NCBI GenBank assembly: GCA_021819125.1
Contig: JAKARW010000005.1
Span: 1 to 52,611, forward strand
DNA from: Pseudomonadota bacterium
Lineage (GTDB): Bacteria; Pseudomonadota; Gammaproteobacteria; Acidiferrobacterales; Acidiferrobacteraceae
Reading direction: 5' to 3'
DNA length: 52,611 nt
This document shows positions 1,218 through 16,930 of this stretch, piece by piece; the stretch's first letter is position 1; every line of letters begins with the position of its first letter. The notes beneath the pieces were generated by a model. The model made no database searches, had not been told where the DNA came from, and saw only the letters and a list, made by a program, of their open reading frames with translations. Position numbers and translations under genes: made by a program.

Positions 1218-2918
1218 CTAACGCGCGACCTCGCCGTCGGAGGCTACGCGCGGGGCCGTGTAAAGGGCCTCGATGGCCGCCGCATAGCGCTCCTCTATCC
1301 ATTGACGCCGGACCTTCAAGGTCGGCGTGAGAAAGCCGTTTTCGGTCGTCCAGGGGCCACTTACGCGCAGTACATGGCAGATACGGGTATATCCGGGGAA
1401 GGCGTGCAGCTGGTCATTGGCGCGATCCTGAAGCTGCTTTTCATCTACGATATCGCTCACCGCGAGCAGGGCCAGCGCGCCGCGCCCTTCACCCACCACC
1501 AACGCCTGCTCGAACGCCGGGTCCTGGAGGATCGCCTGCTCGACATCGGCTGGCGCCACCTTTTCGCCGTTCGATAAGACGATGATGTCCTTGGCGCGCC
1601 CGGTCAGATACAAAAGCCCGCCTTCGAGCCGTCCCAGATCTCCGGTATGGAAATACCCCTCGGCGTCGATCGCCTGGGCGGTCGCCTCCGGAAGATTCCA
1701 GTACCCGCGCATCACGCTCGGGCCTTTGACGCAGATCTCGTCTTTTACGAAACGCAAGGTGAGATTGGCAAGCGGCCGGCCCACGGAGGCGAGATCGCGA
1801 TCAGCAAGGCGGTTGCAACTGATCACGGGGGCGGTCTCGGTCAGGCCGTAACCTTGCACGAAACGCAGGCCAAGGCCTGTAAAAAAGCGCAGCAGGCGCG
1901 GCGCGACCGGCGCCCCTCCCAGGAACACATAGCGGAGCTTGCCGCCCAGGCGGCGCCGCACGGCGCGCCCCACCAGGGCATCGGTGAACCGCGCCGACAG
2001 ACGCTCGAGACGACGCGCGCGGCCCTCATAGACCGCAAGGCCCAGCGCCGAGGCGCGCGCCACGAGACGCTGACGGCGCGGTGATGCCTTGAGCTCCTCC
2101 TGCATCTTGCCGTAGGTGCGCTCGAAGACCTTGGGCACGCTCACGAGGATCGTGGGGCGCACGATTCTTAGGTCCTCGCCAAGCTCCGCGATGCCGCGCG
2201 AGAACACCGTCTCGGCGCCCATGGCGATCGCCACATATTCTCCGACCGTGCGCTCGAGCATGTGCGACAGGGGCAGAAACGACAGGAAGCGGTGTGTCTC
2301 CACGGCGACCTCGGGAAGGGCCGTGAGCAAGGCACCGACATTGGCGAGGATGTTCCGGTGGCTTAACATCACCCCCTTGGGCCGCCCGGTGGTCCCGGAG
2401 GTATAGACGATCGTCGCCAGATCCTCCGGATCATGATCGGCGGGGGCCGCCTGCCGGCCGTCGGCGGCCGCCAGCCAGTCGCGAAACGAGACCACGCCGC
2501 GCGCCTCCTTGAAGCTCACGATGCCCTGGAGCCCGCAGTCTTGGATCTCGGTGGCCGGCGGACGGTCCACGAATAGCCAGCGCACCCCGGCATCCTTCAG
2601 GCAGTAGGCGATGTTTTCCGGGCGATCGTTGAAAAACAAAGGTACGACCGTAAGACCCAGGGACAACGCCGCGAGATCGCAGAACACCCACTCGGGGGCA
2701 TTGTAGGCGCAAATGCCCACACGATCCCCAGGGCGCAGGCCGCTTGCCGTGAACGCCGCGCGCAGCCCCGCCACCTCGCGGCCGGCCGCGCGCCAAGTCC
2801 ACGTCCGCCAGCGGACGCCGTCATAGCCCCGATAGGCGGGCTCGTCCCCGGTGGCCGCGACACGATGGGCCAACAGGCCCCCAAGGGTCGCCGGACCTTG
2901 TCCTTTCAGGGCGCTCAT
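1218..2918 (-). CDS. Long-chain acyl-CoA synthetase (AMP-forming)
   Basis: Activates free fatty acids to acyl-CoA via an acyl-adenylate, the entry step of beta-oxidation. The 566-residue protein shows the adenylate-forming signatures in order: P-loop YTSGTTGRPKG (about 172-182), GYGLTETAP (about 356-364), YFHTGDLG (about 422-429), hinge GRAKDIIV (about 440-447) and the catalytic-lysine segment TPTLKVRR (Lys about 535). Organisation and length fit the FadD/FAA1 class (COG1022). It is the last gene of the operon, and its ATG overlaps the stop of the hydratase/dehydrogenase gene (ATGA, 2915-2918), so translational coupling is likely. Substrate chain length cannot be read from the sequence. The symbol is left blank because several paralogues share this architecture. 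Confidence 0.9.
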   Translation of the reverse strand: MSALKGQGPATLGGLLAHRVAATGDEPAYRGYDGVRWRTWTWRAAGREVAGLRAAFTASGLRPGDRVGICAYNAPEWVFCDLAALSLGLTVVPLFFNDRPENIAYCLKDAGVRWLFVDRPPATEIQDCGLQGIVSFKEARGVVSFRDWLAAADGRQAAPADHDPEDLATIVYTSGTTGRPKGVMLSHRNILANVGALLTALPEVAVETHRFLSFLPLSHMLERTVGEYVAIAMGAETVFSRGIAELGEDLRIVRPTILVSVPKVFERTYGKMQEELKASPRRQRLVARASALGLAVYEGRARRLERLSARFTDALVGRAVRRRLGGKLRYVFLGGAPVAPRLLRFFTGLGLRFVQGYGLTETAPVISCNRLADRDLASVGRPLANLTLRFVKDEICVKGPSVMRGYWNLPEATAQAIDAEGYFHTGDLGRLEGGLLYLTGRAKDIIVLSNGEKVAPADVEQAILQDPAFEQALVVGEGRGALALLAVSDIVDEKQLQDRANDQLHAFPGYTRICHVLRVSGPWTTENGFLTPTLKVRRQWIEERYAAAIEALYTAPRVASDGEVAR

Positions 2919-4933
2919 GGATCCAGCGGGCGGCGCGCGAGCACGCCGTCTTGTGACCAGGCCGGATCGGGCGTGAAACGCGGCCCGTAACGCTCGGCCA
3001 GTTCGGTCAAGCGACTGATCACCTCGCCTGTCCCCAGGGCCTCGGCGTAGCCGAGCGGCCCGCCGCGAAACGGCGCGAAACCGGTTCCATACACGAGGCC
3101 GATGTCCACCATGTCGGAATCGGCCACGACACCAAGCCGCAGACAGCGTGCGGCCTCATTGACGAGTCGCATGATGAGCCGTTCGGCGATGACCGGATCG
3201 GATGGCGCGCGCGCCGACAAGAACCCGCGTGGCCGCGGATACCGATAAAAGCCCTCGCCGGACTTTTTGCCGAGGTGGCCCGCCTCGACCTTGCGCAAAA
3301 GCAGGTCCGGTACCGGCAGATCCAAAGGCGCGCTCAAGGTCTGCGCCACCGCAAGACAGATATCGAGCCCGACCGTGTCGGCGAGCGCGATCGGGCCCAT
3401 GGGCATGCCGAAATCGACCGCCGCCGCGTCAATATCGTGAAGTGCCACGCCCTCCTCGGCGAGGGTCACGGCCTCCAGCAGGTAGGGCATCAATGCGCGG
3501 TTGACAAGAAAGCCGGGCGAGCTTTTGACGTCCACCGGCAAACGATCGAGGGCGACTGCGAAACTGCGCATGACACCAAGCGCCGCCGGGTCGCTGACCG
3601 CCCCGCCTATGACCTCGATCAGCGGCATCTTGGCCACGGGGTTGAAGAAGTGCAGCCCCACCAGACGCCCGGGGACCGAAAGACCCGCGGCGAGATCGTC
3701 GAGCGGGATGCTGGATGTGTTGGTGGCTATGATCGTGCGCGCCGGCACCTGCGCCTCGATCTGCGCAAATAGCGCGTGCTTGGCGTCGCGGTTTTCGATG
3801 ATCGCCTCGATGACGAGGTCGGCCCCAGGCAGCGCCCCGCCGCGCATGTCCGGCATCAGGCGGTCGCGGGCGGCCTCCGCGGCGCGGCCCTTGAGGCGCT
3901 CGGCAAACAGCGCGTGGGCGCGCTTGATCGCGCGCGCCAACACCTCCGGCGCGCGATCCTGGAGACTGACATGGAAACCTTTGAGCACCGCCCACGCGGC
4001 GATGTCGGCGCCCATCACCCCGGCCCCGACGACGTGGATGCGCCGAATTCCATGGGCCTGCGCACGGGCGCGCCCTTTCATCTCCTCGGAGATTTCGAAC
4101 AAATGGACGAGATGCCGGCTCACGGGGGTCACGAGCAGTTCGGCGCACGACAGCGCCTCGGCCTCGAATGAGGCCTGCCGGGCCCATAATGACACGATGC
4201 GACACGGGGCCGGATAGTGACGGCATTCGACCTTGGACTTCAGGCGGCGCTGCACAAACGCGCCGACATAGGGGCGCAGGAATGGTGCCGCGAGCAATCC
4301 CTGGTACCACGGCGGGCGCCGCTTGGGCGGCACGTCACGCAACAACGCGCGCGCCGCGGCCTCCAAATGACGCTGCGGCACGCACTCGTCGACGAGACCG
4401 AGCTTGCGCGCCTTGCGTGCCGACAGACCACGCCCGCCTAGCATCAGGGACAAGGCCGGCAGCGCCCCGATCAGGGCCGGTAACCGGATCGTCCCGCCAA
4501 AGCCGGGATGGATGCCGAGCTTGACCTCGGGCAGGGCAAGGCTCGTGCGTTCATCATCGCATGCCACCCGGTAGCTGCACGCGAGCACGAGCTCGAGACC
4601 GCCGCCCAGGCAATGACCATGGATGATCGCGACCGATGGGTAGGGGAGGTTTGCAAGACGCGTGAGCACCATCTGTCCGGCGCGCGTAAGCTCGGCGGCG
4701 CGCGCCGCGTCGAGGACCCGGCGAAATTCGTGGACATCGGCGCCAACGGCAAATCCCTGGGGCTTGCCCGAGCGGATCACAAGGCCGCGCAAGGGGCGGG
4801 TCTCGAGGACGGTAAGCATCTGATCGAGTTCGCCCAAAACCTCCCGCGACAGGACGTTATGGCGCTTGTCCGGGACGTCCAGGACAAGCTCGGCGATATC
4901 GTCGGCCTCCGCCAACGTCCAGCTCGCGGTCAT
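2915..4933 (-). CDS. Enoyl-CoA hydratase / 3-hydroxyacyl-CoA dehydrogenase (FadJ/FadB-like)
   Basis: A bifunctional beta-oxidation enzyme that hydrates trans-2-enoyl-CoA and then oxidises L-3-hydroxyacyl-CoA with NAD. The first 200 residues are a crotonase domain with HGHCLGGGLELVLAC and LPEVKLGIHPGFGGT, which carry the two catalytic glutamates (about 114 and 136). Residues from about 297 form the NAD Rossmann domain (VVGAGVMGADIA), and GLHFFNPVAKMPLIEVI carries the catalytic histidine (about 428), followed by the C-terminal dehydrogenase domain. I start at 4933, where MTASWTLAE is preceded by GGGGAGGGG; the track's extra 18 residues lie within the thiolase gene. Length is 672 residues. It overlaps the genes on both sides by ATGA (4930-4933 and 2915-2918). 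Confidence 0.93.
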   Translation of the reverse strand: MTASWTLAEADDIAELVLDVPDKRHNVLSREVLGELDQMLTVLETRPLRGLVIRSGKPQGFAVGADVHEFRRVLDAARAAELTRAGQMVLTRLANLPYPSVAIIHGHCLGGGLELVLACSYRVACDDERTSLALPEVKLGIHPGFGGTIRLPALIGALPALSLMLGGRGLSARKARKLGLVDECVPQRHLEAAARALLRDVPPKRRPPWYQGLLAAPFLRPYVGAFVQRRLKSKVECRHYPAPCRIVSLWARQASFEAEALSCAELLVTPVSRHLVHLFEISEEMKGRARAQAHGIRRIHVVGAGVMGADIAAWAVLKGFHVSLQDRAPEVLARAIKRAHALFAERLKGRAAEAARDRLMPDMRGGALPGADLVIEAIIENRDAKHALFAQIEAQVPARTIIATNTSSIPLDDLAAGLSVPGRLVGLHFFNPVAKMPLIEVIGGAVSDPAALGVMRSFAVALDRLPVDVKSSPGFLVNRALMPYLLEAVTLAEEGVALHDIDAAAVDFGMPMGPIALADTVGLDICLAVAQTLSAPLDLPVPDLLLRKVEAGHLGKKSGEGFYRYPRPRGFLSARAPSDPVIAERLIMRLVNEAARCLRLGVVADSDMVDIGLVYGTGFAPFRGGPLGYAEALGTGEVISRLTELAERYGPRFTPDPAWSQDGVLARRPLDP

Positions 4934-6222
4934 GATGTGTCCCCTCCCCGTATCAGCATGGCCCCGCCCTGCCCCCCGCCTATGCACAGCGTGGCAAGCC
5001 CAAGCGCCCCCGGCGTGTCTTTGAGGGATAGCGCCAGGTGCAAGACCAATCGCGCGCCGGTGGCGCCCACCGGGTGTCCGATCGCCACCGCCCCCCCATG
5101 AGGGTTCAGGCGCGCGGCATCGACGGCCCCCGGCGGGGCATCGAGACCAAGTTCGTCACGGGCATAGCTGGGACTGGCCCACGCCGCCTGACAGGCCAGG
5201 ACCTGGGCGCTAAAGGCCTCATTGAGCTCGACCTGATGCAAGTCTTCGATACCGAGTCTGTTTGCGGCCAGCAACCGCGCGGTCGCATGCACCGGCCCAA
5301 GACCCATCTGCGCCGGGTCGACCCCCGCCCAGGCATGATCGACGATCTCGCCCAACACCGGCAGGTGCCAGCGCTTGACGGCGGCCGCGCTCGCCAGCAC
5401 CACCAGCGCCGCCCCGTCTGTGATCTGTGAGCTGTTGCCCGAAGTCACGTCACCGAACGGCCGATCGAACACCGGGCGCAGCCGCGCGAGCTTCTCGAGA
5501 TCGGTGTCGGTACGCACGCCGTTGTCTTGCCCGTAGTAATCCGCCTGCGACCCGTAGATGGGCTCGATCTCGTCTTTGAAGAGGCCGTCGGCCTGCGCGC
5601 GCGCGGCCCGCTGGTGGCTTTGCAGGGCATAGCTGTCCTGAGCCAGTCGCCCGATACCGAAACGATAGGCCACGATCTCGGCGGTCTGCCCCATGGAAAG
5701 GCCGACCACCGGGTCGCGCAGTCCGCGCAAAAGCGAGAAGACCGGCTTTAGGTAGCCGGGCCGAAGGCTTGCCAGGGTCCGCAACCGTGGTCCGAGGCCC
5801 CGGGCGCGGTACAGGCGCGCCAGCCATCGGCTCATCGCCATGTTCCACTGAATGGGCGCGCGGCTCATGGCCTCCGTGCCCCCGGCCAGCACCAGGTGGG
5901 CGCGGCCGGCACTGATGCGATCATAGGCGCTCGCTACCGCCTGTAGGCCCGAGGCGCAGTTTCTCTGGACGGTATGGGCCGGGACCGCGAAACCCGTCCC
6001 CAGGCGCAGGCCGACGATCCGCGCGATATTGGCCTCGTCGGGGGCGGCGATGACGCAGCCCAGAATGACCTCATCGAGGTCCTCGGCGGCGAACGGCTGA
6101 CGCGCCAGCAGGGCGCGGCCGGCCATGATCGCAAGATCGGCGGCGCTAAACGGTCCTGGCTCGTCGCGGGCCTTCAGAAACGGCGTTCGCGCGCCGTCAA
6201 CGATAAATACCCTGCCACTCAT
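4930..6222 (-). CDS. Acetyl-CoA acyltransferase (3-ketoacyl-CoA thiolase, FadI-like)
   Basis: Cleaves 3-ketoacyl-CoA with CoA to acetyl-CoA and a shortened acyl-CoA. The 430-residue protein begins MSGRVFIVDGARTPF and has the nucleophile motif QRNCASGLQAV (Cys about 89), the histidine motif NPHGGAVAIGHPVGATGAR and the C-terminal CIGGGQGGAM with the second active-site cysteine. The start at 6222 lies in an ATGA overlap with the stop of the giant fusion gene, and the track's 18-residue extension lies inside that gene. Its own stop overlaps the hydratase/dehydrogenase start, so the four genes form one tightly coupled unit. A biosynthetic acetoacetyl-CoA thiolase is the alternative, but the neighbours favour degradation. 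Confidence 0.93.
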   Translation of the reverse strand: MSGRVFIVDGARTPFLKARDEPGPFSAADLAIMAGRALLARQPFAAEDLDEVILGCVIAAPDEANIARIVGLRLGTGFAVPAHTVQRNCASGLQAVASAYDRISAGRAHLVLAGGTEAMSRAPIQWNMAMSRWLARLYRARGLGPRLRTLASLRPGYLKPVFSLLRGLRDPVVGLSMGQTAEIVAYRFGIGRLAQDSYALQSHQRAARAQADGLFKDEIEPIYGSQADYYGQDNGVRTDTDLEKLARLRPVFDRPFGDVTSGNSSQITDGAALVVLASAAAVKRWHLPVLGEIVDHAWAGVDPAQMGLGPVHATARLLAANRLGIEDLHQVELNEAFSAQVLACQAAWASPSYARDELGLDAPPGAVDAARLNPHGGAVAIGHPVGATGARLVLHLALSLKDTPGALGLATLCIGGGQGGAMLIRGGDTS

Positions 6223-9200
6223 GTCGCCTCCTTGCCCCCGGCCTTTGGCAATAGTGCCAACAAGGCCTCGACCCATGCGCGGGCGTCGCCGACACAGCGC
6301 ACCACCGGTCGGCCACCTTCGCGCGTGGCGAAGATCGGCGCTGCGGCATCGTGGTTGATCGCGATGATCTGCGTATCAGGGGCGATCCCGGCCAGATGCT
6401 GCGGCGCCCCCGATACCCCGAGCGCGAGCAGCAATCGCGGCGCCACATAAAGGCCGGTCTGCCCGATCTGGTGTTCGAACGGCAAGAGCCCGCTCTCCTG
6501 CACGACCTTACGCGTCGCGCCCAACGCGACCTCGCACCCCATCATAGCCGATAGCCGCGACTTAAGCCTCATGAGCCCCCTTTGGAAAAACGCTCCATCG
6601 GCCACCCCCTGCCCGACGTCGATCACCACCTCGGCGCCGGCAAGCCCGGTGGCGCGGACCGCATGCAAGACGCGCGCAAACCTCCCGGAGCGACCCTCCG
6701 GGGCCACCCAGTCCTCCACCGCGCCGGTCATAGCCGAGCCCATGGATCCGATCCTCCCGGTCCCGGCCGCGGCCACCAGCACCGCACGGTCCGGGCAACG
6801 CATCCGCCATCTTCGCCCACCGCACGCGCGCACGAGCTCATCCCCCTGGCGCGCCACGATATCCGTATAGAGGGGGCGCGCAAGACGCGCGCCGAGCGCC
6901 CCGGCGAGGATCGCCTCCTCGGGGCCCAAGACAATAAAGGAGGCGCTTGCAAGGTGGGGCGCCAGGGCCTTGGCCAGGGGCGCGGCGGCATCGGGCGCAA
7001 AGATCCGAAAAAGCGGCCCGTCCAGGCCCTCGGGAGGCGGCTCTCCTGGGTCGCGCGCAAGCCATACGCCCGCCACGGGCAGACCGAGACCGCGCGCCAG
7101 GTCGGCGCAGGCGCGGCCGCGCGCGCCCGCCCCGGCCACCGCCATGACTGCGGCCTGGCGCGCGGTTCCGGACGCAACCGCCCTTGCCGCCGGCGGCGCC
7201 CCCCCGATGGCCGTCAGTAGCCACGCGGCCAGCGCCTCGGGGGACCCCATGTCCGTCGGTGGAGCCTGCGGGACTACGGCCGCCGGGCAGGCCGTGGCCA
7301 CGGCCCCGGACAGCCGCTCTTCGGGGGGCGCGGTCGTGAGCGCCTCGAACCACTCCCCGGCCGTAAACTCGTCGCTGCGCCCGGTGGCCGGCAGGCGCGC
7401 GCAGATCACCAGGGGTCTGCGATAAGCCACATAGACCCGCCGGCCAGGACCGCGCGTCAGTTGATAGCCGCGCGCGCCGGCCCCGGCGAGCGCCGTGACG
7501 CCATCCACCATGACGGTATTCAGGGCACCGGCCAATGCCGCGAGAAACAGGGGCTCCGGCGAGCCCGCGAGGATCAGATCGGGGCGCAGCCCCGCGACGA
7601 CCATAGCCAGGGCCGCGGGGTCGGCAACCCCCCCGGTGACGACCGCCCGCACCCGCGCCCCAGCGGCCCCCAACCGCTGCGCAAGGTCCGGGCACGGGGC
7701 GGCGGTTACGATCAAAGCCGTGACATCGAGCGCCACATTGCGATCACACGCCGCAAGGATCTGATCCAGGACCGCCAGATCCTCGCCGCTTAGGCGCACG
7801 TCACGCGCATCTGGATGCTGCCAATCGCGCACCAGGACCAGCACATGCCCGCGTAGCCCAGGACCCACGGCCATAGCCGGTTGGGCGGTCGCGGCGGCAC
7901 GGCGGTGGGCAAGCCCCACCACCGCCTGCTCATAGACGGACGCCTCGGCAAACAGCGCGCAGACGGCGCGCGCACGCGCTGTCACCGCCTGTTCGTGGAC
8001 CGCCTCGAGCGCACTGAGAGCGGCCATTGTTTCAGCCGCCGCCCCGCGGGCGCCAAGCGCCTGGCGGCGCTCGACTTGCGCCGCCCAAGCGTAGAGCTCG
8101 GCCACCCAATCGACCACCGGGAACCATAGGATCTGGCCGTCGCCGTCGTCGCCTTCGCGCGCCTTCAGATCCGTAAGGCGCGGCCGCAGAAATGCGCTGA
8201 AGGCGCCTAAAGCGCGATCGAGCGCCTCGCTTCCCGTGGCCTTGATCGCGGCGAACCGTGCGAACAATGCCGGAAGATCCTTGAGCACGAGGAAGCGCTG
8301 AACCTCGTTGGTGCCTTCATAAATATTGAGGATACGCGCGTCGCGTCGCCACTTTTCGATAGGCTCGGACATTGCCGCGGCCGACGGGCCGCACTCGATC
8401 TCAAGGGCCCGCAGGACGCGGTGAAGCCCCTCCGAGGCCAGAAATTTGGATAGCGCCGCTTCGATGCGGAAGTCCCCGCGGCGCAGATCGGCACGATCCA
8501 TGAGACCGACGAGACGCGCGCCCAAGGTCCGCAGGCGTTCATACTCATAGCGGGCGCGCGCGAGCGCGGGCGACGCCGGGTCGAGGCGCGGCGCATAGTC
8601 TGCCACCAGCCGCTCGAGCAGGGCCCCGGCACCGACCACAAGCCCCCCGCGCCCCACGCTCAAAGTCTCCAGGGCATTGACCTGACCGTGGCCCTCGAAC
8701 CCGATGACACGGCTTGCGCACACGCGTACCGCCGACAACGCAATCTCGTTGGTGGGTGAGGCGCGCTGCCCGAGCTTATGCTCATCGCGGCCCACGGCAA
8801 GCCCCTCGCAACGGCGCTCGACCATAAATCCGGTTGGGCCGTGCGCGGTCTTTGCATAGAGACAATAGCGGTCGGCAAGCGAGCCGTTACTGATCCACAT
8901 CTTGCTGCCGGACAGCTCGAAATACTCATAGACCGGGCCGTCGGGGGTATCGCGCAAGACCCCCATATCATCGTAGTCATGGGCCTTTCCGGAATCGCAA
9001 AGTATTCGACGGCGCGCGCGCCCCCCGGTGGCGTCCCAGGCGCTGTCGTCTAAGCGCGCCCACTGGCCATCCGGCAGGCGGTAGCGGACCTCGGAGGCCG
9101 TGAAGTCAAGGCGCCGTTCATCAAGGAGCACACGCGGCCCATGGGCGGTGACAAATCGCCACAACCCGGCCGCGTCCGGGCTCAGCGCGGCGCGCACGGG

Positions 9201-12200
9201 ATGGGCGCGGGTGGTAAGCGCCCCGGTATCGGACCCGGCGGAGGGTTCGGTAAGGGCAAACGCGCTGATCTGCCCGCGCGCCAGAAAGCGCAGAAAGCGT
9301 TCATGGGCCGCCACGCGCTCCGGCAGGCGCGCGCGCTCCTCGGCCACGCGCAAGACAAGCGCCGTAAGTCCCTCGCCGAAGACCTGGGCGCGCTCGGCCA
9401 ACGTATCCAGATCCCGAGTCCGGGCGGCGGCCACCAGCGCCTCGAACCCATCGAGCAGGTCGCGGGCGAGATACTTCAGCGCCGACCCGGGTTTCAGGAA
9501 GCGGTCCTTGATGATCGCGGCCATCGCCTCGAGGGTCTTGCGCAGGGCTTTTGGGCGCGGACGCTCGCACAACGCGCGCACACGGCCCACGCCCCGGCGC
9601 AGACCGGCAAAGGACTCGCTGGAAAGGCCGGCGAGGTCTGCATCGAGCCGCGGGAGATCTTTTTGCAGGGCGAGCAGCACGGGCATGGTGCCGATGCTGG
9701 TGGAGGCCATGACCAAAAGGCCCACCGAGGGATCGACACGCCCCATGAGCAACTCCGCGAGCACGGCATACTCGGCCTTGCTCATGCCAGGCCCCCCCAG
9801 ATCCCGGGGGATCACCGTGGCGAAGGCATGAAAGGCCTTGAGGCGCGCGATATCGGATTCCGGGACCCCATGGCGGTCCTCGATATAACGGCCATAAGCG
9901 CCGCCGCCGGGGGCGCGAAACCCGGCGCGCACGAAACGCAGGACCTGCGCGCGCATGCGCCGCAATGTGGGATCGGCGCGGAAGTCCTCGGGCACAAAGG
10001 CCTCGTCTGCGGCCAACAGTTGTCCGAACAGAAAACTTCCGCTCTGGTAGGCAATCGGCGCAGTCGGTCGAGGGGCGATGGGGAGGCGGTGGGAGATCAC
10101 AAGCCGCGACGCAGGACTTGGGTCCACGGGGAAGCCGTGACTTACGAACACCGCCTCGGCACTATCACCCGGCCGCTTCCACAAGGCGCGCTCTTCGTGC
10201 GCCGAAAGACGCACGGGCTTTGCCGCCGGCCATTGCGACAAAACCATGGCGTCGCGATAGCGGCGGCTTAGAATGTCGTCCTCGGAATAGGCGATGCCCC
10301 CGAAGATCTGGCCCGCGCACCAGGCAAGGCCGTCCAGGGACACCCCGAAGCGTTCCTGGAGGAGCGCCACGGCCATGCGCGGCTCGCAGTCACACGCCGT
10401 GCGCAGGCGCCGGGCGAGCGCCAGCGCGTAGGCGATGACCGCCAGCAACCGTTTGACGGCGCCGAACTTATATATTGCATCGGACCCTGCGCGATCACGA
10501 AACGCCCCGGCGAACTGCACGCGCGCCCGGGCATGGGCATCGGCGCGCGCGAGCAGCGCCTCGCCATACCCTTCCAGAAAGGCCGCGTAGTAGCGGACGA
10601 AGGTCGTGTCGATAACCAACGCCTTCTCGCCCGATGCCGGCACGCGCACGCAACGCGCGGTGTCAAGACCGGCGGCACGCAAGGCGCCGGTGGCGACGAT
10701 GAGACTTTGGCCGTCGATGCCATGGGCGCCGACATCGGGAACCCACGCCGACAGGCCGTCGGCCTCGGGGGTAAGACACACGGTGAGGTGCGCCAGGCGC
10801 CGCGTGCACCGGGCCTCGGCCAACAGGTGATGCAGGGCCACAAATCCCAGTCCGCTGTCGTGTTCGGCAAGCGCCGCGATGACATCCTCGGGGCGCGCGT
10901 CGCGGCCATGCAGGAGACGCATCAAATCCTGGCGATCGTCAGCGGTCCATCCGCGGACGAGTCTTGTGAGGCGCGATGATGGAAAAACCGCTGCCGCCAA
11001 GCCGTGCCATTGGCGTCGCGCGAAGGCCTCGGATTCGTCGGCCGCGCACCGCGCCCCACGGGGCCGCCGGTCGGCCCGAGACCCCCGGGGCCCATCTGGG
11101 GACCCGGCGCCGGCCTCATCCAGCACACCGCGCGCGCCTGCGTCTTGGCCGGTGCGATGCGCATCCGGCAGCTCGTAGATGAGGCGATGCGTGCTCGTCC
11201 GCCGCCAATCGATGGCCGGGGCCACCAATCGGCACGATTCGCACTTGATGCAATTTTCGAAGACCACCGACACCCCACCCGCCGAACTACCCGGTCCGTA
11301 GACCGCCGCCGGGCATACGCGCTGCAGGCGCCGGGCATCCGCCACGGTAAGATCGCGAGGGACTCGGATATGACACAGGTCGGGCCCTGGGCGGCCGAGC
11401 GGGGCCAACCAATCGGTGGGCGAGTCAGGGGGGCTCCTATCCCACGAGAGACGCGCGCGGACCGCCCGTTCACGGCGGTAAAAAGGGGTGCGCATGACCG
11501 CCGAACGGCCCGCGACCAAAAGCTGCACGCCGTCTGCGGCAAACCGAAGCGCCCCGGAGGCGGAAAGCCCGGTCGCGCGCGCCAGCATACGCGCGGCAAG
11601 CCCGCGCACGCGCTCCGAAAACGCCGCGGCCAGACGGGTCTTAAGTCGTGGCAAACCACGGCCGTAGAAATACCCGATCCCGCGGGCAACCCCCGCAAGG
11701 CCCGGGGACGGCGCGGATACCGGCGTAAGTTTCCCTGCGCGCGACACGAGAAAAGTGACACCAAGCGGCGGACAATCGGGCACAAAGGCCTGGCGCGGCA
11801 GAGAGGCTACGACGTTGAGGGTGGCGCGATCGCGCATGAAGGAAAACGCGGCGCGCGCGCACGCCCGGGCGCGAACCTTGGGATCGGCGGTCAGCCCGCC
11901 GATCAGTGCCGGGAGGTGTTCGAAGATCAGGGGGCTTGCGTGCAGGGCCTCGGGCCAAGCGGCGGCCAGACGCGCGTTGTCATACTCGGGGCTCTCGCGC
12001 AAACGCCCGCCATAGGCCTCGGCAAGGGCCGCCGCCGAATAATCATGGCGCGGCCGCAGATCGAGGACCGCGTCGGCGAATGCCGCCCCCGACATCGCCG
12101 CCGGCCCCATGAAGTTCGGGTAGGGAAATTCGAGCCCGAGCCCCAAGGATGCCCCCCCGATCGCGAGCCCATCATAGGCGCACACCACCCCCTCGCGCAG

Positions 12201-13073
12201 GCCGCCGGCGCGGATCACCTTGGCCCCGTAGGCGATCTGCACGGCCCCTTCGAGGAGTACTGCAACCTCCGGCAGGGCCAGAAAGCGACGCATGAGCTGG
12301 GGGTGCGCCACCGGGCCGTAATCGGCAAGCGCCATCAGCGGCAGCACGAGCCCGACTGACAGGGTATCGTGATTCGTATACAAAAAGCCGCTCATGTCGA
12401 GGGCTGCGGTTCGGCCCTTGAACGAACCGTTGCGCAGCAGCCACTCCTGCGCGATGCCCTCGTGGGCGCCGACCCCGAAACGCGCTTCTATGGTCGCGGC
12501 CGGTAGCGCGAACACGGCCTTGATGCCTTGCGCGTAGCCGACCGCGGGACGCTCGAGCCCGGCACGCGTGAGCACCCCGGCGGCATCGCCCTCGGCCAGG
12601 AATACCACCCGCGCCTCGATCGGTCCGCGCGCGGTATCGACACCCACCACCCGTCCGCCCCTATACCGCAGTCCGGTGACCGTCGTGCGTGGTAGGACGA
12701 TGGCCCCGTACTCCACCGCGCGCGCCGCGAGATAGCGGTCGAGCTTGGGACGCAACACCGTCCAGGCCTCGCCGTAGTCGTTGCCGGCCACGGCGCGCGC
12801 CTCGAAACCCGCGCATCCGTCGCCCCCGTGGACGAAAAGCGAGCGCGCCACGATCCGCCGTTCGCGGGGGGCACGCGCCCAGGCATCCGCCCCCAGGACG
12901 TCCTCGCGCGCCAGAGTCTCGGCGTGATAGACGCCGCCCGACCAGTTTTCCGCGCCCGCGAATTCCGCGCCTTCGAGTACCAGGGCGCGCACCCCGGCGC
13001 GCGCAAGCTTCAGGGCGGCGGTGATGCCGGCCGGTCCCGCGCCCACGATCAATACCTCCGGCCCCTGACCCAT
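6219..13073 (-). CDS. Giant fusion: FixC/ETF-QO - FixX ferredoxin - acyl-CoA dehydrogenase - ETF-beta - ETF-alpha
   Basis: One open frame of 2284 codons joins the acyl-CoA-to-quinone electron path. Residues 1-430 are a FixC/ETF-QO FAD domain (VLIVGAGPAG, NWSGGVYH). Residues 545-640 are FixX-like: Cys587 (RVCPAAVYG) plus CIKCESC (608, 611, 614) give the four 4Fe-4S ligands. An Arg/Gly/Asp-rich linker (640-690) leads to a diverged ACAD-like module (about 690-1005; QIFGGIAYSEDD, no catalytic EGT). A full ACAD follows (about 1005-1735; LTEPSAGSD at 1274-1282, SGSKMWISNG, IYEGTNEVQR with Glu1586 as predicted base). ETF-beta spans about 1738-1930, and ETF-alpha spans about 1940-2284, with FEHQIGQTGLYVAPRL and AINHDAAAPIFA as the FAD signature. 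The start at 13073 is preceded by GGAGG; the track's 46 extra codons look like upstream DNA. Similarity persists in one frame end to end, so this is not a misread string of genes. Substrate and quinone binding are inferred. Confidence 0.92.
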   Translation of the reverse strand: MGQGPEVLIVGAGPAGITAALKLARAGVRALVLEGAEFAGAENWSGGVYHAETLAREDVLGADAWARAPRERRIVARSLFVHGGDGCAGFEARAVAGNDYGEAWTVLRPKLDRYLAARAVEYGAIVLPRTTVTGLRYRGGRVVGVDTARGPIEARVVFLAEGDAAGVLTRAGLERPAVGYAQGIKAVFALPAATIEARFGVGAHEGIAQEWLLRNGSFKGRTAALDMSGFLYTNHDTLSVGLVLPLMALADYGPVAHPQLMRRFLALPEVAVLLEGAVQIAYGAKVIRAGGLREGVVCAYDGLAIGGASLGLGLEFPYPNFMGPAAMSGAAFADAVLDLRPRHDYSAAALAEAYGGRLRESPEYDNARLAAAWPEALHASPLIFEHLPALIGGLTADPKVRARACARAAFSFMRDRATLNVVASLPRQAFVPDCPPLGVTFLVSRAGKLTPVSAPSPGLAGVARGIGYFYGRGLPRLKTRLAAAFSERVRGLAARMLARATGLSASGALRFAADGVQLLVAGRSAVMRTPFYRRERAVRARLSWDRSPPDSPTDWLAPLGRPGPDLCHIRVPRDLTVADARRLQRVCPAAVYGPGSSAGGVSVVFENCIKCESCRLVAPAIDWRRTSTHRLIYELPDAHRTGQDAGARGVLDEAGAGSPDGPRGSRADRRPRGARCAADESEAFARRQWHGLAAAVFPSSRLTRLVRGWTADDRQDLMRLLHGRDARPEDVIAALAEHDSGLGFVALHHLLAEARCTRRLAHLTVCLTPEADGLSAWVPDVGAHGIDGQSLIVATGALRAAGLDTARCVRVPASGEKALVIDTTFVRYYAAFLEGYGEALLARADAHARARVQFAGAFRDRAGSDAIYKFGAVKRLLAVIAYALALARRLRTACDCEPRMAVALLQERFGVSLDGLAWCAGQIFGGIAYSEDDILSRRYRDAMVLSQWPAAKPVRLSAHEERALWKRPGDSAEAVFVSHGFPVDPSPASRLVISHRLPIAPRPTAPIAYQSGSFLFGQLLAADEAFVPEDFRADPTLRRMRAQVLRFVRAGFRAPGGGAYGRYIEDRHGVPESDIARLKAFHAFATVIPRDLGGPGMSKAEYAVLAELLMGRVDPSVGLLVMASTSIGTMPVLLALQKDLPRLDADLAGLSSESFAGLRRGVGRVRALCERPRPKALRKTLEAMAAIIKDRFLKPGSALKYLARDLLDGFEALVAAARTRDLDTLAERAQVFGEGLTALVLRVAEERARLPERVAAHERFLRFLARGQISAFALTEPSAGSDTGALTTRAHPVRAALSPDAAGLWRFVTAHGPRVLLDERRLDFTASEVRYRLPDGQWARLDDSAWDATGGRARRRILCDSGKAHDYDDMGVLRDTPDGPVYEYFELSGSKMWISNGSLADRYCLYAKTAHGPTGFMVERRCEGLAVGRDEHKLGQRASPTNEIALSAVRVCASRVIGFEGHGQVNALETLSVGRGGLVVGAGALLERLVADYAPRLDPASPALARARYEYERLRTLGARLVGLMDRADLRRGDFRIEAALSKFLASEGLHRVLRALEIECGPSAAAMSEPIEKWRRDARILNIYEGTNEVQRFLVLKDLPALFARFAAIKATGSEALDRALGAFSAFLRPRLTDLKAREGDDGDGQILWFPVVDWVAELYAWAAQVERRQALGARGAAAETMAALSALEAVHEQAVTARARAVCALFAEASVYEQAVVGLAHRRAAATAQPAMAVGPGLRGHVLVLVRDWQHPDARDVRLSGEDLAVLDQILAACDRNVALDVTALIVTAAPCPDLAQRLGAAGARVRAVVTGGVADPAALAMVVAGLRPDLILAGSPEPLFLAALAGALNTVMVDGVTALAGAGARGYQLTRGPGRRVYVAYRRPLVICARLPATGRSDEFTAGEWFEALTTAPPEERLSGAVATACPAAVVPQAPPTDMGSPEALAAWLLTAIGGAPPAARAVASGTARQAAVMAVAGAGARGRACADLARGLGLPVAGVWLARDPGEPPPEGLDGPLFRIFAPDAAAPLAKALAPHLASASFIVLGPEEAILAGALGARLARPLYTDIVARQGDELVRACGGRRWRMRCPDRAVLVAAAGTGRIGSMGSAMTGAVEDWVAPEGRSGRFARVLHAVRATGLAGAEVVIDVGQGVADGAFFQRGLMRLKSRLSAMMGCEVALGATRKVVQESGLLPFEHQIGQTGLYVAPRLLLALGVSGAPQHLAGIAPDTQIIAINHDAAAPIFATREGGRPVVRCVGDARAWVEALLALLPKAGGKEAT

Positions 13074-13468
13074 ATAGCCTCCTGCCTCCAGTATAGACAC
13101 GCCCCATGGCCCCGTAGGGGCGGCTTTATATCGTGGCCGGAGAGGACCGAAAAGGCGCGCGATCCCCGGCCGGGCGCCGTTTGCTCGGGCGAGGCGTACC
13201 GGTCGAAACATTCAGGCATCCTTGCCTTCTAGGCCACGCGGCGCATGGCGGCTCGGCGTCGCTCGTCGTGGCGCACTGGCTCTCCCCTTTCCCGGCACGC
13301 CGCAGGCCTCATGTGGGGGAGCGCGTCGTGGCGTACGCCGGGGAGGCGTGAGGTGTCGCGGCCCATTTTTGGCTCCTTCCAAAGTCCCATGGACCGGCTC
13401 GCTCGTTTTTAGGATAGTGGGGGGCTTCGCACGCCGCGCGGGACCCATGCGCGAATCGAGGAGGTGGT
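13074..13468. other. Intergenic region upstream of the fusion operon
   Basis: About 395 bases without a supportable gene between the divergent fusion operon and a methyltransferase gene. On the minus strand GGAGG lies four bases before the fusion ATG. Two AT-rich hexamers could serve as -10 elements: TATACT (13090-13095) and TATAAA (13125-13130). The latter sits 17 bases from a poor -35 (TTTTCG). On the plus strand GAGGAGGT precedes the methyltransferase GTG start. The short ORFs on both strands look like chance GC-rich reading frames. Confidence 0.4.
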
Positions 13469-14370: not shown

Positions 14371-16077
14371 TCACGCTTTATCATCATTAAGGCACGCCTC
14401 TTCTGAGGGCTGCGGGCCTGCCATGCCCGTGCCCGGCATTCCCCCTTCGGTCGAATTCACGAACACCGTCGGCAGATCGATGACCTCTTCTACCGCCTCG
14501 CCGGCGACCGACACCACGGCGAGGGCCTGGCGATGGTAGAGACGGCGCACGAGCGCGGCCGATACGAGGGATCGCGCGCGGCGGCGGCGGTCAGGGAGTC
14601 GCCCGAGGAGGCGCTCGAAAAATTGAATGGTGTGCCAGTCCTCGGTGCGCAGGCAGAGCTTCTGGCGGAAGTTTTGGAGCAGGGTATCCGCAAGGTCGCG
14701 GTCACCCACGGCCGCGTAGAAGCTTGCGATAGACTGCGCGGATATGATACCGACCGTACCGAAGGCGCGCCCTTTGTCCCAGAAGTTGAGATCGGAAAGT
14801 CCGTCTTTGTTGGCGCTCACGATTTCCTGATACTCGTCGCACAAAAACAGTACCGGGCGTGCTCGTTCCGCGGTGGGGCGCCTTTGCATGTACTGGAAGA
14901 ATCGTAGCTTGATAAAAGTGTAGACCACTTTGGCGCCCACCCCCCAGACGGCAAGCGGCAGATCGACGAGGATGACCGCGCCCGACCCGAGGGCTTCAAT
15001 CGCCAGGGCATCGGCGGGCGGGCAGAAGGCATCGACGAGATCCGGGTGGGTGAACGGCGTCAGCACCTGGGCTGCGCTCGCGAGCACGCCGGCCACCACC
15101 TTGGCGTCAAACCGCGTGAACACGCCTTCATGATAAGACTGGTAGCTGCGAAGGAGCCGCAAGGCTTCGGCGCTGAGGCCCGCGGCCTCATCGCGTAATC
15201 GGCGATCGCAGTCGGCGCGGACATCGTCGCGAAAGAGGTAGTCGTAAAGACCGGCGAGGCTATAGCGGTCGGGCAGAAACGAAAGCACGCCCAGGGCGTT
15301 GCGGCAAAGCTCGACTGCGGTCTCGGTCCAGAACGGGTCTCCGGGCGCGCCGTTTAGGAGCAGGACCGATTTCAAAAAGCCGGCGGCGGCCTCGGGCGTA
15401 AGTCCGCGCAAGAGATTGAACGCCCTCCGGCCAGGACCCACGACCGTAAGCTCTCGGCCGGCGCGGCGCGCAAGCCCCGCGGCGGCGACCCCGAAGTCCC
15501 CCTTGATGTCAAACAAGAGTCCGCCCATGCCCAAGGCAAGACACTGCAACAAGACAGGCTGGATGACCGAGGTGGTCTTACCCGAACCGATGCCGCCCAG
15601 GACCAAAAGATTCTGGCCGAGATCATCGCCCCCCAACACCAGGGACCGCCTTCCCCGACCCGGCCACAGGCCGCGGCGCCGCAAGAGTCCACCGGAGGCG
15701 CCAAGCCACAAGCGAATATCGGCGGACACGGCCGGGATTTTGGGCCATGGCGTGCGGATATTCGCCAAGCGGTGCATAAGCCAAACCATCGGGGCACCGC
15801 CCATCAACACCGCGGCCACGACGCCCGACAAAGACCCGCGCCGTGCGTGGGGACGCATGAGCCGGGGCCAGCCTACCTTGTCCCAGGGCGCGGGCCATGG
15901 GATGTCACGCTCCCGATCCCCCGGGGGCGCCGCATCGCGGGCTGCCGCCAGACGGACTGCCTCATTAAGCAGGCCGCGCGCCTCGAGCTGTTCGCCGACA
16001 TCCAGCAAGGCGCGCAGGCGCCGACGCGCCGCGCGCGCGCCAAGCGCGCGGGTCCATTGATGGCGATCGGGCGGCAT
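14371..16077 (-). CDS. Type IV coupling protein-like ATPase (VirD4/TraG/TraD family)
   Basis: A membrane-anchored hexameric-type ATPase that normally delivers relaxase-bound DNA to a type IV secretion channel. Of 568 residues, about 83-101 form one clear hydrophobic segment (VVAAVLMGGAPMVWLMHRL). The Walker A is GGIGSGKTT (about 161-169), FDIKGDFG follows, and the Walker B-like FLCDEYQEI lies near 395. The motif GIISAQSIASF and the C-terminal LRTEDWHTIQFFERLLG also fit the family. The start at 16077 follows GGGAG nine bases upstream. It diverges from the relaxase-like gene with 79 bases between them. No VirB/Tra channel genes are present, so it is either an orphan or uses a channel encoded elsewhere. 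Confidence 0.82.
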   Translation of the reverse strand: MPPDRHQWTRALGARAARRRLRALLDVGEQLEARGLLNEAVRLAAARDAAPPGDRERDIPWPAPWDKVGWPRLMRPHARRGSLSGVVAAVLMGGAPMVWLMHRLANIRTPWPKIPAVSADIRLWLGASGGLLRRRGLWPGRGRRSLVLGGDDLGQNLLVLGGIGSGKTTSVIQPVLLQCLALGMGGLLFDIKGDFGVAAAGLARRAGRELTVVGPGRRAFNLLRGLTPEAAAGFLKSVLLLNGAPGDPFWTETAVELCRNALGVLSFLPDRYSLAGLYDYLFRDDVRADCDRRLRDEAAGLSAEALRLLRSYQSYHEGVFTRFDAKVVAGVLASAAQVLTPFTHPDLVDAFCPPADALAIEALGSGAVILVDLPLAVWGVGAKVVYTFIKLRFFQYMQRRPTAERARPVLFLCDEYQEIVSANKDGLSDLNFWDKGRAFGTVGIISAQSIASFYAAVGDRDLADTLLQNFRQKLCLRTEDWHTIQFFERLLGRLPDRRRRARSLVSAALVRRLYHRQALAVVSVAGEAVEEVIDLPTVFVNSTEGGMPGTGMAGPQPSEEACLNDDKA

Positions 16078-16156
16078 CAGGGAATCTCCCGATAAAAATC
16101 GAGCCTAACAAGGGCTACGCTTGCCCGCCTATCGGGAATATGCCGGGAGACTTGCC
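16078..16156. promoter_or_regulatory. Divergent mobilization-gene spacer with inverted repeat
   Basis: The 79 bases between the coupling-protein and relaxase-like genes contain a perfect 8-base inverted repeat, TCCCGATA at 16087-16094 and TATCGGGA at 16130-16137, almost symmetric about the middle of the spacer. It must hold both promoters and could be an operator for joint control or part of a transfer origin, since oriT usually lies next to a MobA-type gene. The sequence alone does not decide between them. Confidence 0.4.
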
Positions 16157-16930
16157 ATGATGCCCGTTTTGTCCATACGGGGGCGGCGTTCGGGTCAGAA
16201 GGAGGGGCTCGTGGCGCGCGCGGCCTACTGCGCAAGACGCCGGATGCACGATGAACGGCGCGGCCGGGTCTTTGACTTTTCACAACGCCCCGGGCTTGCC
16301 TGGTCAGAGCTGTCGCTCCCCGATGCGCTGCCCGCCTATCTGGCGGATCCGGAGCGGCTATGGAATGCCATCGAGACCGCGCGCACGCGCAGCGTCGGGG
16401 GACAGGCCTGCGAGCTTATTATGGGGCTCCCCCGAGGCCGGCCGCTGCCGATGCATGCCGCCTTCGTGCGCGGCTTCGTCGTCGAGGCATTCGTGACGCG
16501 CGGACAGGCCGTCGACTGGCATATCCATTATGACAAGGCCGGCAATCTCCATGCGCACGCCCTGGCAAGCCCCGCCTGGGCGGGTGTCGTCAATCGAGCC
16601 ACAAGCGACCGGTCAGGGGCGCGCGGCGAACGGCGCTCCGGCCTTCACGCCACGTGGCGGCGCCACTGCGAGCGCTGGGGGTTTACCTGCGATACCGAGG
16701 CATTTTGCCTCAGGGGCGCCCCGCGGGCTTGCGCTTACGCCCTCGGCCGGCGAGGGATCATGACCCGCCGATGGCGCGAGCGCGCCGCGCGCCAAGCGCT
16801 CGTCATCCGCCCCCCGGGGAATCGTTGGCCGGCGTGGCTTAGACTACGACTGCGACGTCGGGCGCGTGATGGGCGTGATGGGCGTGAAGGGGTGCCAGGG
16901 GCGCGACGGGCGCTCGCGCGCGAGCGCTAG
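16157..16930 (+). CDS. MobA/MobL-type relaxase-like protein
   Basis: A 257-residue protein resembling the relaxase domain of MobQ-class mobilization proteins, which nick DNA at oriT. The N-terminal SIRGRRSGQKEGLVARAAYCAR places a candidate catalytic tyrosine at about residue 24, and IHYDKAGNLHAHAL provides the HxD/GNxHxH histidine triad for metal binding. Between them are FDFSQRPGLAWSEL and LPAYLADPERLWNAIE, matching the family's LPxx...LWNxVE segment. The C-terminus is short, arginine-rich and lacks a helicase or primase domain. I chose ATG 16157 because GGGAG lies seven bases before it; the track's TTG at 16121 has no such site. It is paired divergently with the coupling-protein gene. Confidence 0.72.
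   Translation: MMPVLSIRGRRSGQKEGLVARAAYCARRRMHDERRGRVFDFSQRPGLAWSELSLPDALPAYLADPERLWNAIETARTRSVGGQACELIMGLPRGRPLPMHAAFVRGFVVEAFVTRGQAVDWHIHYDKAGNLHAHALASPAWAGVVNRATSDRSGARGERRSGLHATWRRHCERWGFTCDTEAFCLRGAPRACAYALGRRGIMTRRWRERAARQALVIRPPGNRWPAWLRLRLRRRARDGRDGREGVPGARRALARER

Follow-up and report, generated by a model that had tools for sequence, protein, structure and literature searches.

The 52,611-nucleotide stretch of contig JAKARW010000005.1 (assembly GCA_021819125.1) analysed here as the window, from a member of the Acidiferrobacteraceae, encodes a giant fusion protein of 2284 residues in which FixC, FixX, a degenerate acyl-CoA dehydrogenase (ACAD), a catalytic ACAD, and the EtfB and EtfA modules of an electron transfer flavoprotein (ETF) follow one another on one chain. 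This protein is very probably a self-contained fatty-acyl-CoA:quinone oxidoreductase, predicted to perform the first flavin-linked step of beta-oxidation and to feed the electrons into the membrane quinone pool. A first-pass annotation of the window had suggested that one chain could form a dedicated acyl-CoA:quinone reductase, and this reading is the best supported because all modules are present with their key residues, the gene lies in a beta-oxidation operon, a search of the genome found no other ACAD, and in other phyla this architecture recurs beside lipid genes.

The gene runs from ATG 13073 to a stop at 6219, for a product of ∼240 kDa:

6219..13073, minus strand: giant fusion gene, 2284 amino acids, FixC-FixX-pseudoACAD-ACAD-EtfB-EtfA (open frame, Shine-Dalgarno sequence, 24-member alignment).

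The longest version of the open reading frame (6219..13211) would encode 2330 amino acids; the 2284-residue product is preferred because ATG 13073 is preceded by AGGAGGCTATATG, with the Shine-Dalgarno sequence AGGAGG a few bases upstream, and because homologues begin at the equivalent position. The frame contains no internal stop and runs uninterrupted through all domains. Each module of the order given by the first-pass annotation was recovered by profile or by fold; the profiles drew on 11 homologues and were compared with the sequences of solved structures. Pfam alone is insufficient as a test, because it recovers the FAD domain, the N, M and C domains of the ACAD, and ETF_alpha, while EtfB, FixX and the pseudo-ACAD escape it. 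The identical order was found in 24 full-length proteins of five phyla, and this recurrence of both frame and order establishes that the arrangement is real and far beyond chance. That the frame is instead an assembly artefact, or is processed after translation so that separate ordinary proteins operate in the cell, is very unlikely: several loci are split across contigs, one (G1416/L106) carries an unresolved stretch mid-frame, and cleavage of large multidomain precursors is possible, but the 24 full-length frames come from independent assemblies, including a single-contig 3.4-Mb genome (G004), and the motifs lost from one ACAD half are kept by its fused partner half.

The N-terminal end of the protein, predicted to face quinone, comprises three elements:

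11874..13073, minus strand: FixC / ETF-QO (ETF:quinone oxidoreductase)-type FAD module, residues 1-400, with a GxGxxG dinucleotide motif and a conserved PxPN motif (7koe_C, E 6.8e-27; NCBIfam FixC models).
11469..11591, minus strand: hydrophobic segment in the FixC-FixX linker, residues ∼495-535, a possible membrane contact (hydropathy scan).
11154..11381, minus strand: FixX-type single [4Fe-4S] module, residues 565-640, with Cys587, 608, 611 and 614 (7koe_D, E 8e-7; human ETF-QO 2gmh, E 2e-4).

The first module matches FixC best, both among family models and in structure 7koe_C, and its GxGxxG and PxPN motifs are conserved in the 24-member alignment. The FixX cluster named in the first-pass annotation was recovered by both structural profiles, and its four cysteines are kept in all 24 aligned full-length proteins, bar one unknown residue in one of them; the giant thus carries both hallmarks of ETF-QO and FixCX, a GxGxxG FAD domain and a four-Cys [4Fe-4S] motif.

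Between the FixCX and ETF modules lie two ACAD-related halves with complementary residues:

10224..11036, minus strand: degenerate ACAD pseudo-subunit, residues ∼680-950, AGQxFGGxxYSEDDxxxxxYRDA kept, catalytic Glu absent (butyryl-CoA dehydrogenase 1buc, E 1.2e-7).
10296..10310, minus strand: QxxGG motif, Q922-G926, the expected contact for the ADP moiety of the FAD in the partner half (invariant; beta-subunit role, PMC11153573).
8259..10061, minus strand: catalytic ACAD of the very-long-chain acyl-CoA dehydrogenase (VLCAD) type, residues ∼1005-1605, Glu1586 in IYEGTNE, own QxxGG lost (3b96, E 1e-56; AlphaFold 2; Foldseek).
8316..8318, minus strand: codon of the catalytic base, Glu1586 (invariant in 24 members).
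7839..8258, minus strand: helical C-terminal extension of the ACAD, residues ∼1605-1745, VLCAD/ACAD9-like (AlphaFold 2 helices; fold matches).

An ACAD-like module preceding a true ACAD with IYEGTNEVQR had been described from the sequence, and the structural matches to 1buc (residues 690-960, E 1e-7) and 3b96, together with the invariant Glu1586, sustain that description while refining the first of the two to a pseudo-subunit. In all 24 giants the pseudo-ACAD keeps Q922, G925, G926 and the YRD element and has no catalytic Glu, and in all 24 the catalytic ACAD retains Glu1586 while its QxxGG has been lost, position 1558 being Glu or Asp instead; of nine stand-alone ACADs encoded by these genomes, seven carry QxxGG. 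The catalytic half contains the N, middle and C domains of an ACAD and the Glu in its IYEGT(N/S) loop, with two insertions of ∼130 residues before the FALTEPSAGSD motif and ∼90 residues within the middle domain. An AlphaFold 2 model of the pair (residues 640-1775) forms a single body with good confidence, at a mean per-residue confidence (pLDDT) of 82.8 and a predicted template-modelling score (pTM) of 0.84, and its top Foldseek matches are VLCAD/ACAD9, VLCAD-type ACADs of ∼550-590 residues. When their profiles were compared directly, the pseudo-ACAD and the catalytic ACAD gave no match, so that an origin by internal duplication is not supported; each is assigned to the shared family through its own matches to solved ACADs.

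The two subunits of alpha2beta2 ACADs share the FAD, beta binding its ADP-ribose and alpha holding its isoalloxazine as well as the catalytic Glu (PMC11153573), with one FAD per heterodimer (PMC8399759); in CasC, two ACAD domains are fused, the C-terminal one alone being catalytic and the N-terminal one required for FAD (PMC8399759). The giant shows the same division, with the catalytic Glu in one half only and the partner-FAD motif in the other. Given QxxGG in the pseudo-half and Glu1586 in the catalytic half, one composite FAD site per giant, shared by the two halves as in ChsE4-ChsE5 and CasC, is expected from sequence and analogy; the ACAD-like module should be a conserved pseudo-subunit completing that site and not a second enzyme.

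The C-terminal end carries the ETF, in the order beta then alpha that the first-pass annotation had assigned:

7269..7841, minus strand: EtfB-type domain, residues ∼1745-1935, nucleotide and recognition loops not conserved (6fah_B, E 4e-13).
6222..7226, minus strand: EtfA-type domain with FAD-binding signature, residues ∼1950-2284 (Pfam ETF_alpha, E 2e-17; 5ow0_A, E 8e-28; human ETF-alpha fold match).

EtfA residues R2188, Q2205 and H2226 are invariant in the 24 giants. The EtfB region is very divergent, its nucleotide (AMP/FAD) loop being shortened or altered, with TIDGDTAQ intact in the genome's own FixA; the recognition-loop region aligns, at low identity, and is not conserved. The EtfB recognition loop touches medium-chain acyl-CoA dehydrogenase in human ETF (PMC9006661), and its non-conservation here, in a weakly aligned region, agrees with an ETF that has ceased to visit other partners. 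The giant's ETF may serve no other dehydrogenase, which would be compatible with this loop and with a genome in which no other ACAD was found.

It is very improbable that the giant is an enoyl-CoA reductase or an electron-bifurcating complex in the manner of FixABCX or Bcd-EtfAB, rather than a linear dehydrogenase. ACAD-Etf complexes can run reductively in anaerobes, and it is the EtfABCX set (7koe) that the FixC and FixX modules most resemble; yet the EtfB module is without the (I/T)DGDTAQ nucleotide loop present in FixA of the same genome, and the operon partners are degradative. FixX mediates electron transfer from EtfAB to FixC (PMC9232219), and bifurcating FixX carries two cluster motifs (PMC6085437), whereas the FixX module of the giant has solely the four-Cys pattern of ETF-QO, the genome's own FixX having about twice as many Cys. 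Neither the second flavin/NADH site in EtfB nor the two-cluster FixX of bifurcating FixABCX was thus found in the giant, and both the single four-Cys Fe-S motif and the missing EtfB nucleotide loop argue against bifurcation.

The acyl-CoA:quinone oxidoreductase reading draws further on gene context, as the giant heads a four-gene operon (giant-FadI-FadJ-acyl-CoA ligase) with an ATGA overlap at every junction:

4930..6222, minus strand: FadI-like thiolase, whose ATG overlaps the giant's stop codon (ATGA).
2915..4933, minus strand: FadJ/FadB-like enoyl-CoA hydratase / 3-hydroxyacyl-CoA dehydrogenase, ATGA overlap.
1218..2918, minus strand: AMP-forming long-chain acyl-CoA ligase, ATGA overlap.

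Genes of these FadI and FadJ types lie upstream of the giant, on the same strand, in two Planctomycetota loci (L026, L027). No other ACAD was found in the window's 99.7%-complete genome (G000), where the sole other ETF is the nif-linked FixAB beside NifB, NifS and NifV. The giant is also the sole ACAD at E<=1e-10 in 5 of 14 other genomes tested (G021, G462, G1393, G1403, G1340); it is not always alone, further ACADs accompanying it in the remaining nine.

These data also bear on substrate. Specialisation for a different thioester of CoA, be it a steroid, hopanoid-like, branched or aromatic one, instead of general fatty acids, is unlikely: steroid degradation does offer examples of fused or alpha/beta pseudo-dimer ACADs (PMC8399759), and the two unusual insertions could reshape the pocket, but the catalytic ACAD is nearest VLCAD/ACAD9 by both sequence and fold, FadD-, FadJ- and FadI-like or lipase genes neighbour the giant in several phyla, and the giant is the only ACAD found in several genomes.

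As a fatty-acyl-CoA:quinone oxidoreductase, the protein would bind acyl-CoA at its VLCAD-type ACAD, where Glu1586 would take the alpha proton and the ACAD FAD the hydride, this FAD being held by the catalytic ACAD at its isoalloxazine and by the pseudo-ACAD QxxGG at its ADP end, with one active site per chain. The tethered FAD domain of EtfA would then shuttle electrons to the FixX-type [4Fe-4S] cluster, from which they would pass to the FixC FAD and on to quinone, EtfB presumably serving as a scaffold; electrons would in this way be channelled within the giant, and FadJ, FadI and the acyl-CoA ligase of the operon could supply the remaining steps of beta-oxidation. We infer cofactor loading, the order of electron transfer, quinone as the acceptor, membrane contact, substrate chain length and an uncleaved product.

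Several points weigh against this scheme. The relatives of the window's organism are iron- and sulphur-oxidising acidophiles, for which fat oxidation is, to our knowledge, not known as a main trait. The EtfB module is poorly conserved, and an AlphaFold 2 model of ACAD plus ETF reached a pTM of 0.58, leaving the orientation of the ETF relative to the ACAD not fixed, and no docking geometry is therefore claimed. The hydrophobic FixC-FixX linker, the only candidate for membrane contact that was found, is weak in the window protein (hydropathy 1.13, versus 1.9-2.3 in about half of the members), and the giant may be cleaved after translation.

A search for homologues with identical domain order had been called for, and the resulting 24 full-length proteins, whose identity falls to about 26-30%, derive from Acidiferrobacter relatives, Planctomycetota, Acidobacteriota, Verrucomicrobiota and Nitrospirota. 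The frame is present in nearly all sampled genomes of the window's genus, among them the single-contig G004, and in a second family of its order (f5), while a draw across Pseudomonadota returned it in 1 of 399 genomes, the window's own. Elsewhere it was detected in Planctomycetota (8/343 genomes), Acidobacteriota (6/297), Verrucomicrobiota (2/289) and Nitrospirota (14/148), each count including the centre genome of the search; none was found in plasmid records. In the 24-member tree, the sequences of Acidiferrobacter and of Nitrospirota form clades, one Planctomycetota sequence falls with the Acidobacteriota, and the remaining Planctomycetota interleave with Verrucomicrobiota; this topology fits a fusion that is old, was inherited patchily and has undergone some horizontal transfer. 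A candidate natural split form in two frames (G1416/L106) was rejected, its break coinciding with an unresolved stretch (XXXX). One Nitrospirota homologue (L061, 2575-2577) has an in-frame stop within the FixC module, giving frames of 367 and 2410 amino acids, through sequencing error or as a decaying copy.

Other genes were observed around the giant and elsewhere in the window's genome. In two Planctomycetota loci (L026:18577-20280, L027:18260-19993), the gene directly after the giant encodes a conserved protein of ∼570 amino acids whose C-terminal domain is a lipase-like alpha/beta-hydrolase, a patatin-like phospholipase gene adjoins it convergently in Acidobacteriota (L110:15834-18050, L112:15690-17903), and large frames near it in Nitrospirota and Planctomycetota (L108:5039-6889, L111:16022-17791, L111:4243-6027) have no Pfam or NCBIfam match. 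Within the window, a small protein with a weak DUF3617 match (685-1302) lies downstream of the acyl-CoA ligase on the same strand; past the 5' end of the operon (14371-16930) lie genes for a VirD4/TraD-like coupling protein and, encoded on the opposite strand, a MobA/MobL relaxase, and the beta-oxidation operon therefore borders a possible mobile element. Elsewhere in the genome, a nif cluster (L105, G000:C7:32000-50000) contains FixA, FixB, FixC and FixX beside NifB, NifS and NifV, from which the organism is likely to be a nitrogen fixer with a bifurcating Fix system.

The transfer of electrons from ACAD to ETF to ETF-QO is a textbook diffusible relay with transient complexes. The giant resembles the mitochondrial and bacterial relay in its modules and presumably in electron order, with the FixX Cys pattern of human ETF-QO, but unites what are four separate polypeptides in one chain with a tethered ETF, an added pseudo-ACAD and non-conserved EtfB loops. 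It shares with the homodimeric VLCAD/ACAD9 its best sequence and fold matches, the Glu at the IYEGT position and the C-terminal helical extension, and differs in its two insertions, the loss of its own QxxGG and the apparent replacement of the dimer partner by a degenerate copy fused to it. CasC of Rhodococcus jostii, ChsE4-ChsE5 and ChsE1-ChsE2 likewise have catalytic and non-catalytic ACAD halves sharing one FAD, fused in CasC in the same N-to-C order; these, however, act on steroids and have no reported fusion with ETF or ETF-QO, and the non-catalytic half of the giant is much more reduced. EtfABCX/FixABCX (Thermotoga, nif) has the same EtfA, EtfB, FixC and FixX modules, with FixX between EtfA and FixC, yet lacks an ACAD, is bifurcating, and consists of separate subunits with two FixX clusters and an FAD/NADH site in FixA.

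No description of the giant architecture was found in the open-licence literature searched, in line with the first-pass annotation, to which no described protein with this complete order was known. Precedents exist for the modules, for their chemistry and for the fusion of an ACAD pseudo-dimer; a single polypeptide that carries the whole path from acyl-CoA to quinone is best regarded as a new architecture of the ACAD-ETF-ETF-QO relay. It probably represents an undescribed enzyme class in at least five phyla, a one-polypeptide respiratory entry module with a tethered ETF and a pseudo-dimeric ACAD that in some genomes would replace all separate ACADs, ETF and ETF-QO for fatty-acid oxidation. Because the giant recurs patchily in five phyla and is the only ACAD found in several genomes, standard annotation, naming it by its best-scoring domain, can misread the beta-oxidation capacity of its hosts. 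If this reading is true, a single chain of fixed stoichiometry would open the whole relay to one structure and one assay, and would reveal the benefit of doing without a shared ETF.

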